Below are positions 9,858 to 49,272 of a stretch of 64,000 nt of DNA, in pieces. How positions within the stretch are numbered: position 1 is the stretch's first letter; each line of letters begins with the position of its first letter. Origin of the DNA: Sporichthya brevicatena (GTDB taxonomy: Bacteria > Actinomycetota > Actinomycetes > Sporichthyales > Sporichthyaceae). The DNA lies in contig NZ_BAAAHE010000024.1 in assembly GCF_039525035.1 (NCBI RefSeq), positions 1 to 64,000 of the forward strand, read 5' to 3'. Below the pieces are notes generated by a model. The model was not told the origin of the DNA. It saw only the letters and a list, made by a program, of their open reading frames with translations, and made no database searches. The position numbers and the translations under genes are program-made.

Positions 9858-10397
9858 TTACCGGAAGTTCTTGGCGTAGCCCGGGCAGTAGAGCGACGCG
9901 GCGCCGAGCAGGAACGCCTTGCTCTGCGGACGGGTGAACCCGCCGCCGGCGGCGACCTCGGCGACCATCTTGCTCGGCGCGACGCCGTTGCCGAGGAACT
10001 GGCAGGCCTGCGACGCGGCGGTCGCCGGGGCGCTGGCCGCAGTCACCTTGATGCCGACCTTGTTCAGGTACTTCACGAGCGCGGCGCGCTTGGCGTTGGC
10101 GCTCATCCCGGTCGGCTTCGGCAGCGCGTCGGCGGCCTTCGCGACCTTCTCCGAGTACGTCAGCGGCTTCGGCTTCGCGGGCGCCGGCTTGGCGCCCTTG
10201 TCCGCGGACTGCGAGGCCGGGGTCCCGGCGAGCGGGTCCGTGCCGCCGTTGTTGCCGAACGCCAGGTAGAGGCCCGCGACGAGAGCGGTCACCACGACGC
10301 TGAGCAGGACGACGCGCGCGACGGTCTTCCCGAACGGCTCCTTCTCGGCGAGCTCGGTCTCGGGCGCGTACTCGTCGTGTTCCAGCATCAGACTCAT
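9858..10397 (-). CDS. membrane-anchored DUF732-like protein
   Basis: A 179-residue protein with an acidic cytosolic head (1-22), one transmembrane helix (about 27-47), an Ala/Pro/Lys-rich linker and an extracytoplasmic C-terminal domain (about 80-179). The domain has the features of DUF732: a Cys in SQACQFLGNG and a terminal LYCPGY motif, suggesting one disulfide. DUF732 proteins are common exported actinobacterial proteins of unknown function. The ATG has GGAGG at a good distance. The MFS gene lies upstream on the same strand, 97 bp away. Confidence 0.65.
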   Translation of the reverse strand: MSLMLEHDEYAPETELAEKEPFGKTVARVVLLSVVVTALVAGLYLAFGNNGGTDPLAGTPASQSADKGAKPAPAKPKPLTYSEKVAKAADALPKPTGMSANAKRAALVKYLNKVGIKVTAASAPATAASQACQFLGNGVAPSKMVAEVAAGGGFTRPQSKAFLLGAASLYCPGYAKNFR

Positions 10398-46240: not shown

Positions 46241-47020
46241 ATGGCCACCACCGTCCTGGTCCACCGCGACCCGCCGACCCTCGCCGCCGCCGTCGCGGCG
46301 CGCCTCGTGACCCGTCTCGTCGACGTGCAGGCGGCGACCGGACGGGCGTCGGTGGTCCTCACCGGGGGCAGCGTCGGCATCGCCACCCTCGGGGCGCTCG
46401 CGGACATGCCGGCCCGCGACGCGATCGACTGGCGCAACCTCGACATCTGGTGGGGCGACGAGCGCTTCCTGCCGCTCGGGCACGCCGACCGCAACGAGAC
46501 CCAGGCCCGTGCGGCCCTGCTCGACAAGGTCGGCGTCGACCCGGCGCGGGTGCACCCGATGCCCGCGAGCGACGGACCCGACGGCGACGACCCGGAGGCT
46601 GCCGCCGAGCGCTACGCCGCGGAACTCAAGGCCGCGGCGCGGCCGGAGGACCACGGCATCGCGCCCAGCTTCGACGTGTGCCTGCTCGGCGTCGGCCCGG
46701 ACGGGCACGTCGCCTCCCTGTTCCCGGAGAAGCCGGCGCTGTACGAGGAGGTCCGCTCCGTCGTCGGGGTCCGGGGATCCCCCAAGCCGCCGCCCACGCG
46801 CATCAGCCTGACGATGCCGACGATCCGCGGCGCCAAGGAGGTCTGGTTCGTCGTCGCCGGCGAGGACAAGGCGTCGGCGGTCCACCTCGCGCTCTCCGGC
46901 GCGGGGCCGATGCAGATCCCGGCAGCGGGCGCCTCCGGCCGGACGCGGACCCTCTGGCTGCTCGACCGGGCCGCGGCGTCCAAGCTCCCGCCGTCGCTCG
47001 CGCGGCTGGCCTCTCCCTGA
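46241..47020 (+). CDS. pgl: 6-phosphogluconolactonase
   Basis: A 259-residue lactonase of the NagB/DevB fold that hydrolyses 6-phosphogluconolactone, completing the oxidative branch encoded by the operon. Motifs are TGGSVG near the N-terminus, WWGDERF and GVGPDGHVASLFP. AGGAG precedes the ATG. It is the last gene of the operon and faces a convergent HEPN gene across 36 bp with no clear hairpin. Confidence 0.94.
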   Translation: MATTVLVHRDPPTLAAAVAARLVTRLVDVQAATGRASVVLTGGSVGIATLGALADMPARDAIDWRNLDIWWGDERFLPLGHADRNETQARAALLDKVGVDPARVHPMPASDGPDGDDPEAAAERYAAELKAAARPEDHGIAPSFDVCLLGVGPDGHVASLFPEKPALYEEVRSVVGVRGSPKPPPTRISLTMPTIRGAKEVWFVVAGEDKASAVHLALSGAGPMQIPAAGASGRTRTLWLLDRAAASKLPPSLARLASP

Positions 47021-47056
47021 CGCCGGCTCTGACGCGACTCTGACGCTGTCTCAGCT

Positions 47057-47479
47057 CTAGAGGCAGGCCGCCTGCGGGCAGGGCACATCGAGCATGGCAG
47101 CGACGAGGGCGACGAACGTCGCCGCGTCCCGCATCAGGTCGTCGGCCTCGCGGGCCGTGACGGAGCGGGTGAGGCCCGCCTCCGCCGCGGCGCGCTTGCC
47201 GGCGTTGGCGGCGAAGAACGCGGCCCACTCCGAGAGCTCGGGCGCGACCACGACGAGCAGTTCCCACGCGGAGCGCGGGCGGCGCCGCTTGCCCGTCACG
47301 GGCTGCGCGCGGACCGCAAGGACGGCAGCCGCGCCGCGGAGCGCGGCGAGGTGGGCGGCGGCGTACCGGTCGACGGGACGCGTCGCTGCGTTCGCGGCGG
47401 CCAGGCAGTGGCCGGCGGCGTTCAGCAGCTCCGGCGCCCCGGAACGCGGCGCGGCCGGGTGCTCGATGACCAGGCTCAT
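47057..47479 (-). CDS. SAV_6107-type HEPN domain protein
   Basis: A 140-residue all-helical protein of the actinobacterial SAV_6107 HEPN family. The pattern is a run of Ala-rich helices with LLNAAGHCLAAANAA, YAAAHLAALRGAAAVL and ARPRSAWELLVVVAPELSEWA-like spacing. From memory, relatives are linked to SOS mutagenesis genes (imuB, dnaE2); neither is in the window. The ATG has AGGAG six bases upstream. A consensus SOS box at 47622 lies 143 bp upstream. Confidence 0.75.
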   Translation of the reverse strand: MSLVIEHPAAPRSGAPELLNAAGHCLAAANAATRPVDRYAAAHLAALRGAAAVLAVRAQPVTGKRRRPRSAWELLVVVAPELSEWAAFFAANAGKRAAAEAGLTRSVTAREADDLMRDAATFVALVAAMLDVPCPQAACL

Positions 47480-47621
47480 GTCGACTCCTCGCTCTCCCGT
47501 GCGGCCCCGGGCGGACCGGGACCGAGCTCTCCCACCGGGCCGGGCGGGCGGGGGTCGAGGCCGGCCGCCCGGCCGGTGAGTGGTGTCGAACCGGTCCGAG
47601 CGACCGCGGGGGGTCAGTCGC

Positions 47622-47637
47622 TCGAACATCTGTTCGA
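47622..47637. promoter_or_regulatory. LexA-type SOS box
   Basis: TCGAACATCTGTTCGA matches the actinobacterial consensus TCGAAC-N4-GTTCGA at every fixed position. It is 143 bp before the HEPN gene and 220 bp before the AMIN-like gene. LexA control of the HEPN gene is inference. Confidence 0.7.
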
Positions 47638-47770
47638 CACGGAGAACAGTGCCCCCCACCCCCGACAATCTGGCAAGCACCGATGTCTCCGGCGCGCCGC
47701 CGCCCGAAAAATTTGTCCGGTAAGTCCGGTAAACCGATTCGCACCCCTCGGCGTCTCCTGTGCAGTCACC

Positions 47771-47822
47771 ACCGAGTTGCCCGACCGAGTTGCCCAACCG
47801 AGTTGCCCAACCGAGTTGCCCA
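47771..47822. repeat. four tandem 13-bp repeats
   Basis: Units at 47771, 47784, 47797 and 47810 read ACCGAGTTGCCCA, with the first ending in G. The run ends 34 bp before the AMIN-like ATG, so it lies in the promoter or leader. It could be a multi-site operator or a slippage-prone spacer. Confidence 0.9.
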
Positions 47823-47856
47823 CCCGATGCACTGCCCGACACCCCAGGGGGAAGAG

Positions 47857-48357
47857 ATGTTCCAGCTCCGCAACCGCAAGACCGCCGTCGCCGCCCTCGC
47901 CGCGACCGCACTCGCCGGGACCGGCCTGGTCGGCGTCGTCGCGTCCGCCGACGCGGCCGCGAAGACCGCTACGGTCAAGAACCTGCGCACCGGCGCGCAC
48001 AGCAACTTCGACCGCGTGGTCATCGACTACACGGGCAAGAAGCCGACCGTGAAGCTCTCCCTCGTCAACAGCCTCTACAGCTGCGGCAAGGGCGACAAGC
48101 TGACGATCCCCGGTGACAAGATCCTCAAGATCGACCTGACGCCGGCTCAGGCGCACAACGACAAGGGCAAGAGCACGTACTCGGGCCCGGGTCGACTGTC
48201 GACCGCGAACTACAGCCTGAAGACGCTCAAGGGCGTCCGGATGGCGTGCGACTTCGAGGGCCACGTGACGTTCGGCGTCGGCGTCAAGAGCCTCAAGAGC
48301 TACAGCGTGAGCCACCTGACGAACCCGAAGCGGGTCGTCATCGACCTGAAGCGATGA
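47857..48357 (+). CDS. secreted AMIN-like domain protein
   Basis: A 166-residue exported protein. Residues 1 to about 34 are a signal peptide (RNRK, a hydrophobic stretch, and an ADAAAK cleavage region). The rest has the actinobacterial AMIN-like pattern: FDRVVIDYTG, a middle with Cys in YSCGKG, and a final FEGHVTFGVGVKSL and RVVIDLK, probably with one disulfide (also Cys in MACDFEG). AMIN domains bind cell-wall or envelope polymers. GGGGGA precedes the ATG. Confidence 0.75.
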   Translation: MFQLRNRKTAVAALAATALAGTGLVGVVASADAAAKTATVKNLRTGAHSNFDRVVIDYTGKKPTVKLSLVNSLYSCGKGDKLTIPGDKILKIDLTPAQAHNDKGKSTYSGPGRLSTANYSLKTLKGVRMACDFEGHVTFGVGVKSLKSYSVSHLTNPKRVVIDLKR

Positions 48358-48387
48358 CGCTCAGTCAGGTATCAAGCTGATCAGGGG

Positions 48388-49272
48388 TCAGCGCATTCGG
48401 CCGGTCGCCCGCAGGCGGCCGGCCGAATTCGTTCCGAACCGCTTCTGCACGAGCTGGTTGGCCGCGGCCAGACCCTTCGCGAACGGGGTCGGCGCGAGCC
48501 GCTTCATCGCGTACAGCAGCCGCGTCTCGATGTGCGGCAGCAGCAGGAACTTCCGCCGGTCGACGGCCCGCAGGACCTTGCGCGCCACGTCGTCGGCGGT
48601 CAGCTTCGGACCGGGGAACAGGTCCCCCGCGATGGCCTGACGTGCCATCACCTCGAAGGCCGGGTCGGTCGTCCGCATCGTGTCGGCGAGGTTCGTCGCG
48701 AAGAAGCTCGGGCAGACCACGGTGGTCCGGATCCCCAGCGGCTCCAGCTCGCAGCGCATCGTCTCCGACAGCGAGATCACGCCGGCCTTGGTGACGTTGT
48801 ACGACGCCATGTTCCCGAGGTTCATCAGCCCGGCGAGCGAGGCGATGTTGACGACGTGCCCGGCGCCCTGCGCCTCGAACATCGGCACGAACGTCCGCAC
48901 GCCGCGGATGGCGCCCTTGAGGTTGATGTCGAGGATCCAGTCCCAGTCGGCCATGGGGATGTCGGCAATCGGGCCGGCCGCCGCCACCCCGGCGTTGTTC
49001 ACGAGGACGTCGAGTCCTCCCCAGTGCTCCGCGCACCACTCGCGCGCACCGTCCCAGGCGGCGTCGTCGCGGACGTCGAGGGCGAGAAAGGCGACCCGGT
49101 CCGGGTTCCCGCCGCGTTCGCGCAGGCGCTCGGCCAGCTCCAGCCGGGCCAGCTCCCCCGCCGCCGCGTCGCGGTCGGTGAGCAGCACCCGGGCGCCGTC
49201 GTCGGCAGCCGCGCGGGCGAGCGCACGACCGAGCCCGGAGGCTGCTCCGGTGATCAGGATCCGCCGGTCCAT
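48388..49272 (-). CDS. SDR family oxidoreductase (294 aa)
   Basis: A 294-residue classical short-chain dehydrogenase with a C-terminal extension. The cofactor motif is GAASGLGR (9-16), NNAG follows, the catalytic residues are Ser in IASLAGL and Tyr-x3-Lys in SYNVTK. The last 60 residues are basic (LLPHIETRLLYAMKRLAP), as in the lipid-associated or acyl-modifying SDRs. Substrate unknown. The ATG at 49272 has GGAAGAG upstream. Its final codons contain a 15-bp-arm hairpin. Confidence 0.88.
   Translation of the reverse strand: MDRRILITGAASGLGRALARAAADDGARVLLTDRDAAAGELARLELAERLRERGGNPDRVAFLALDVRDDAAWDGAREWCAEHWGGLDVLVNNAGVAAAGPIADIPMADWDWILDINLKGAIRGVRTFVPMFEAQGAGHVVNIASLAGLMNLGNMASYNVTKAGVISLSETMRCELEPLGIRTTVVCPSFFATNLADTMRTTDPAFEVMARQAIAGDLFPGPKLTADDVARKVLRAVDRRKFLLLPHIETRLLYAMKRLAPTPFAKGLAAANQLVQKRFGTNSAGRLRATGRMR
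48395..48428. terminator. hairpin within the 3' coding end of the SDR gene
   Basis: Arms 48395-48409 and 48414-48428 pair at 14 of 15 positions with a 4-nt loop. It lies 38 bp after the AMIN-like stop and inside the last 14 codons of the convergent SDR gene, so it could terminate the AMIN-like transcript. Confidence 0.45.

Follow-up and report, generated by a model that had tools for sequence, protein, structure and literature searches.

How actinobacteria share tasks between the RecA/LexA and PafBC pathways is still under study. PafBC is activated by single-stranded DNA in mycobacteria. The LexA-independent damage promoters were described with the consensus tTGTCRgtg-8-TannnT (PMC5656591), and a PafBC-specific motif was reported at -26 (PMC11804915). 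The mycobacterial mutasome ImuA'-ImuB-DnaE2 is reported to be under dual SOS and PafBC control (PMC10421592), and the mycobacterial recA gene is likewise controlled by both LexA and PafBC (PMC5656591, PMC8223512). In Corynebacterium glutamicum, the LexA regulon includes cg2381, a gene of unknown function; its M value after ciprofloxacin is 3.86, the same as that of recA (PMC5055667). The SAV_6107-like HEPN family (HEPN-M) is tabulated without the RX4-6H motif in PMC3710099, and its row in that table gives no gene association or regulation. Our literature searches found no link between the SAV_6107 HEPN family and the SOS response and none between HEPN and dnaE2; among the records returned, those for HEPN domain and translesion comprised only a Salmonella prophage-gene study, and those for HEPN with LexA, SOS and Actinobacteria did not bear on the family.

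The window, which is the whole 64-kb stretch of DNA analysed here, contains one gene of this Pfam family (PF18726) behind an exact LexA box; LexA/PafBC control and linkage to polymerase genes, as proposed below, are what the present analysis adds for the family. The best reading of the locus is that the HEPN protein is a damage-induced accessory of translesion synthesis, with well-supported regulation and a biochemical role that we infer. Because its damage-control switch is conserved in many actinobacteria and error-prone polymerase genes are often its neighbours, the HEPN gene is probably an overlooked part of the bacterial DNA-damage response, and a domain of unknown function becomes a conserved SOS gene with a testable role. 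Like mycobacterial recA, the HEPN gene would combine both kinds of control. Different from recA, which has two separate promoters (LexA at P2, PafBC at P1), it carries the LexA operator on the predicted start of a single PafBC-type promoter.

The HEPN gene also has an apparent orthologue in cg2381, the ciprofloxacin-induced member of the LexA regulon (PMC5055667). The gene order in C. gallinarum is MetF, GNAT, HEPN, DUF3040, MraZ and RsmH, and the HEPN protein there matches PF18726 with an E-value of 6.2e-14. The C. gallinarum IdsA protein shares 79% identity with the query sequence, which comes from 3lk5 (source organism presumably C. glutamicum). The mraZ gene of C. glutamicum is cg2378, and it falls after ciprofloxacin while cg2381 rises (PMC5055667). 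Because the position of the C. gallinarum PF18726 gene, between GNAT and DUF3040-MraZ, fits mraZ being cg2378, gene order suggests that cg2381 is the HEPN orthologue.

The HEPN gene of the window and its predicted promoter

The earlier note had placed an exact SOS box upstream of a SAV_6107-type HEPN gene, and both parts of this claim hold. The box, TCGAACATCTGTTCGA, is the only exact LexA match in the 64 kb, and 100 dinucleotide-preserving shuffles of the window contained zero exact boxes. The HEPN product matches HEPN_SAV_6107 with 124.3 bits, against a cut-off of 27.2. A ribosome binding site (GAGGAG) lies five bases 5' of the start ATG (47477–47479), and the box is 142 bases from this ATG. 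The features of the region are collected in Table 1.

Table 1. Features of the HEPN promoter region, with positions in the window
Feature	Position	Strand	Basis
SAV_6107-like HEPN gene, 140 aa, stop codon included	47057–47479	-	PF18726 E 3.2e-36, gene call, AlphaFold model pLDDT 87.5, HEPN structural match
LexA operator (SOS box) TCGAAC-N4-GTTCGA, exact	47622–47637	.	motif search; kept upstream of orthologues
PafBC / RecA-NDp type upstream element TTGTCGGGG	47660–47668	-	8/9 to tTGTCRgtg (PMC5656591)
Predicted -10 element CACTGT	47646–47651	-	8-base spacer to upstream element; TACTGT in nearest relative G001
Predicted transcription start, just before box	47638–47640	-	inferred from -10 position
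Predicted 5' leader, 142 bases, ends in GAGGAG	47480–47621	-	length differs among relatives

The HEPN gene is convergent with a 6-phosphogluconolactonase gene and divergent from the gene of an AMIN-like secreted protein (47857–48357, plus strand), which flanks the box on its far side and starts 219 bases beyond it. According to Pfam and the gene calls, the genes near HEPN encode the 6-phosphogluconolactonase, the AMIN-like protein and an SDR protein. NCBIfam has no family for the HEPN or the AMIN-like protein. The RNA family search of 46800–48600 returned nothing above the gathering score; its one match, with an E-value of 0.73, was to a snoRNA family. Thirteen-base tandem repeats (ACCGAGTTGCCCA) occupy 47771–47822, just upstream of the AMIN-like gene, and this stretch is different in G001.

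Upstream of the box, the window motif TTGTCGGGG-N8-CACTGT agrees with the damage promoter consensus at 10/12 positions and is oriented towards the HEPN gene; the upstream element has one mismatch and the -10 element is without the first T of TannnT. Eight bases separate the end of the -10 element from the box; therefore, the predicted start of transcription falls immediately ahead of the box, and LexA would cover it. A start at the box would also explain the 142-base leader, as a prediction in support of the start site near the box that the earlier note had implied from the long distance. The scan of 47380–47900 for sigma-70 promoters and terminators found none; this null result does not speak against a promoter of PafBC type. 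The window's own genome encodes two WYL-domain proteins on contig C21, the genes being about 1 kb apart, as pafB-pafC would be.

The leader region (47480–47660) folds with -107.8 kcal/mol (z -2.99). On the minus strand of 47583–47640, a long imperfect hairpin is possible, in which GTGTCGAAC at the box pairs with downstream GTTCGACAC. The hairpin is kept in G001, the leader of which is almost identical to that of the window. We rejected a structured leader as an essential part of the arrangement: it is probably dispensable, because the hairpin is only partly kept in G002 and the box and the HEPN start are only about 21 bases apart in G003. We also rejected an ATG within the LexA box, which is in frame with HEPN in G000, G001 and G002, as the main start. 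In the same three genomes, a ribosome binding site precedes the ATG at 47479, which is also where protein similarity begins; moreover, the box of G004 contains no ATG and that of G003 has it out of frame.

Conservation of the operator and of the promoter motif

In the relatives set, 48 of the 60 genomes contain PF18726, the own genome being counted; the family also occurs in 78 of the 81 genomes of the family of G034 and, above the cut-off, in 14 of 198 phylum-sample genomes, 12 of which belong to the same class. A search for LexA was positive in 56 of the 60 relatives. We assembled 88 HEPN loci: 47 from relatives, the window's own, and 40 picked for diversity from those available in the phylum sample and the family of G034. 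The box was sought up to 1 kb upstream of the HEPN domain, or less far where the contig ends. It was exact at 54/88 loci, within one mismatch at 72/88 and within two at 83/88. For 441 control genes of the same loci, the numbers of exact and one-mismatch-or-better boxes were 2 and 5, respectively. The 47 relatives alone gave 36 exact boxes and 42 with at most one mismatch. LexA (SOS) control of the HEPN gene, as proposed in the earlier note, is thus well supported by the conserved operator sequence.

Within the window's family, the boxes of the two relatives outside the genus, G003 and G004, have one mismatch each; in G002, of the same genus, the box has two mismatches and the NDp motif score stays below 10. 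Among five f18 loci, which probably belong to Streptomyces, the box has two mismatches in G021, G058 and G243 and is missing by the mismatch criterion in G041 and G221. The selected LexA targets of S. venezuelae in Table 1 of PMC9380542 do not include a HEPN gene. G017 and G018 contain HEPN with an exact box; LexA was not found in these two incomplete genomes. HEPN was absent from all four g5 genomes (probably Mycobacterium) in which it was sought. DnaE2 is present in both of the two that were also searched for it, so a DnaE2 mutasome can do without HEPN.

A second set of loci came from named genomes. Because the HEPN alignment was too diverse, we took the neighbouring polyprenyl synthase IdsA as bait; HEPN was present in 43 of the 80 fetched loci, and the other 37, which did not contain it in the fetched stretch, were left out. 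These 43 loci are separate from the 88, although some probably come from the same genomes. A box within two mismatches was found in 32 and none in 11, which are ten Corynebacterium records and one Mycobacteriaceae MAG. The Corynebacterium HEPN proteins differ from that of the window: they have diverged, R38 and H43 are not kept in the three aligned, and their box variants often fail the criterion. The closest sequence to a box at the C. gallinarum HEPN gene is TAGAAAGTGTGTTCTA, with three mismatches.

The promoter motif has a preferred place. In 32/82 loci, the consensus upstream of the box scores so high that no more than 1 of 100 first-order resamplings reaches its level. When the spacer is set to eight bases, 34/83 loci score at least 10/12 at -42 to -29 from the box, and 26 of the 34 have the motif at exactly -30 or -31; elsewhere in -120 to +60, a motif of at least 10/12 was found in 4 loci. 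The score is 11/12 in G001, 12/12 in G003 and G004, and below 10 in G002. PafBC control would not be universal, because 49/83 loci stay below 10/12 at -42 to -29.

We also searched the class for a strict composite PafBC-LexA pattern, which is present in 87/393 genomes; the reversed-control pattern had no match among the rows listed. The strict pattern has no match in G000, G002 and G004, and the match in G003 is not at HEPN; G000 misses it because of its own -10 element. Among the first 30 composite sites listed, 26 are followed by HEPN at a distance of up to 1.2 kb and on the same strand. At sites L311 and L316, the HEPN profile match already starts ahead of the site, which an open frame there probably explains, and at L292 and L296 the 3-kb locus contains no HEPN. 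The composite arrangement is therefore not exclusive to HEPN, and HEPN dominates the 30 sites examined. Several further composite sites lie in g5 genomes: G549, G603, G631 and G533 (f4, g5, probably Mycobacterium), which are other genomes than the four g5 ones found to lack HEPN, have two to four each.

Gene neighbourhoods and the HEPN protein

Neighbourhoods were counted by reading the listing of the 88 loci, and representative labels other than FtsL and IdsA were checked with Pfam. A polymerase gene stands beside HEPN in 31/88 loci, of DnaE type in 20 and DinB in 11. The commonest polymerase order is DUF6504-HEPN-DnaE (16/88). Two loci have HEPN-ImuA'-ImuB-DnaE2, and two have DnaE2 just upstream of HEPN; HEPN-methyltransferase-DinB-DUF3040 occurs in nine loci and HEPN-DinB-DUF3040 in two. 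The order HEPN-DUF3040-MraZ-RsmH occurs in 36/88 loci, all from the family of G034, in some of which the HEPN gene call failed. The remaining 21 of the 57 loci without a polymerase comprise seven with DUF3040 downstream and 14 with neither. In the window's family, HEPN is next to pgl-opcA-zwf in 5/5 genomes, with one gene between in G003.

For 41 DnaE proteins, the reading frames of which were selected by similarity, a quick tree with SH-aLRT as the only support shows three groups: DnaE1; DnaE2, which includes four HEPN-linked members; and a third clade of sixteen HEPN-linked proteins, three second copies from f16/f18 genomes and one protein from G028. The polymerase genes beside HEPN thus represent two DnaE clades and DinB. 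L083, L071 and 14 similar DUF6504-HEPN-DnaE loci have their DnaE in the third clade and stand mostly behind an exact LexA box.

The earlier note had pictured the HEPN gene acting apart from the mutasome. This stands for the window's family and for the own genome, in which ImuB and DnaE2 are encoded on contig C44 with boxes of their own and HEPN on C24; being on different contigs, HEPN is not co-transcribed with imuB/dnaE2 there. It does not stand for the 31/88 loci that adjoin a polymerase gene. Like HEPN, the mutasome has LexA boxes, and it adjoins HEPN in G040, G057, G042 and G059; the difference is that the own-genome HEPN lies on another contig and that the g5 genomes tested are without HEPN. 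These arrangements suggest that the HEPN gene keeps its operator wherever it is placed, beside polymerases, in a division cluster or beside sugar-metabolism genes. The context in the relatives points to translesion synthesis or a cell-division cluster, rather than to a toxin.

Linkage is no proof that HEPN takes part in translesion synthesis, the MraZ/RsmH order (36/88) being more frequent than a polymerase neighbour (31/88). HEPN might instead belong to a checkpoint that acts on division or on cell wall synthesis after damage, as the DUF3040-MraZ-RsmH loci of the G034 family would allow and as the opposite changes after ciprofloxacin, mraZ (cg2378) down and cg2381 up (PMC5055667), would fit. 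We regard this as unlikely: the 16 DUF6504-HEPN-DnaE loci have no MraZ in the stretch shown, HEPN of the window's family is near zwf-opcA-pgl, and the changing polymerase neighbours (DnaE2, the second DnaE type and DinB) suggest a need that the polymerases share.

The AlphaFold model of the HEPN protein has a pLDDT of 87.5 and a pTM of 0.80. Among the families listed by VIA-align, its best match is the HEPN protein 2hsb (Z 14.8, rmsd 2.5, 115 residues aligned). Another four of the six best rows also carry the name HEPN, with Z from 10.6 to 12.4, helical-bundle rows being near Z 6 and a Z under about 13 possibly being chance for helical bundles. Foldseek E-values were weak, the best being 0.33. 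Across 83 homologues, Trp72 is invariant (83/83), and Arg48, Trp85, Phe89, Arg96 and Gly102 are kept in 77 to 81.

The suggestion in the earlier note that the protein is an RNase or effector was not borne out. That HEPN is an SOS-induced RNase or growth-arrest effector, cutting RNA after damage, would agree with the superfamily fold, with the toxin structures (MntA-HepT) among the matches at Z about 8 to 9, and with R38-x4-H43 in the window protein; R-x4-6-H begins at the R38 column in 48/83 homologues. However, R38-x4-H43 lies within the second helix of the model (residues 35–57), and column 43, which is His in 48/83 homologues, is Tyr in 32/83. The family is also listed without the RX4-6H motif (PMC3710099). 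The window neighbours on both sides, 6-phosphogluconolactonase and AMIN-like, include no minimal nucleotidyltransferase or antitoxin-like gene, as an MNT-HEPN pair would have. Moreover, different from most toxins, HEPN is single-copy in each matching genome and present in 78/81 genomes of the G034 family; in the own genome PF18726 is single-copy as well. On sequence grounds the RNase reading appears weak, and we hold it to be quite improbable. Because His43 is often Tyr and the entry for the catalytic motif in PMC3710099 is 'No', we favour a binding or adaptor role.

Proposed mechanism and other SOS boxes of the genome

We consider it likely that the HEPN gene forms a damage-controlled single-gene unit, with a PafBC-type promoter, a LexA operator and a non-catalytic HEPN protein that works with error-prone synthesis. 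A PafBC (RecA-NDp) type promoter would drive the gene, and the LexA operator would lie at about +1 to +16. In undamaged cells, LexA would block the start site. After damage, RecA on single-stranded DNA would remove LexA, and PafBC would recruit RNA polymerase to the HEPN promoter. The HEPN protein, which is all-helical and most likely serves as a non-catalytic subunit for binding or as an adaptor, would then act with DnaE2, the second DnaE type or DinB. The box, the promoter motif, their preferred spacing and their conservation are observed at the HEPN gene; binding by LexA and PafBC and induction in the window organism would follow from them. A function with error-prone synthesis is suggested because polymerases are recurrent operon neighbours in other families. 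Two frequent neighbours, DnaE2 and DinB, are the enzymes behind damage-induced mutagenesis.

More tentatively, the SAV_6107 HEPN protein could be a core, unrecognised component of the damage response that serves several polymerases, its promoter being a coincidence gate of LexA removal and PafBC; we find this possible but somewhat doubtful. The single-promoter arrangement, if real, would give the RecA/LexA and PafBC pathways a natural AND gate. If the coincidence gate is true, it would fire only when both single-stranded-DNA sensing pathways agree.

It is very improbable that the box serves only the divergent AMIN-like gene or is an orphan site. The two genes that flank the box are indeed divergent, the AMIN-like one starting 219 bases away, and the exact box inside a LytR-CpsA-Psr gene of the own genome means that orphan sites may exist. 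In G003 and G004, however, HEPN, the promoter motif and a one-mismatch box are present but no AMIN-like gene was found at this place; the motif points to HEPN, and 72/88 HEPN loci have a box with at most one mismatch.

The 5.2-Mb own genome contains nine exact LexA boxes, that of the HEPN gene in the window included. Seven others are at lexA, recA, imuA', imuB, an AlkB-like 2OG-oxygenase gene and two DUF222 genes. The name imuA' is assigned from the position of the gene; the ImuA' candidate has no Pfam match. The box inside the LytR-CpsA-Psr gene is at L099:7845–7860, and the box at L102:10342–10357 holds the start codon of a DUF222 gene (ATG at 10350). The other SOS promoters of the own genome have no equally well placed promoter motif. 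The closest is that of the LysM gene divergent from lexA: two boxes lie between these genes (L101:7478–7563), and an NDp-like motif of 10/12, oriented towards LysM, stands 40 bp in front of the second box.
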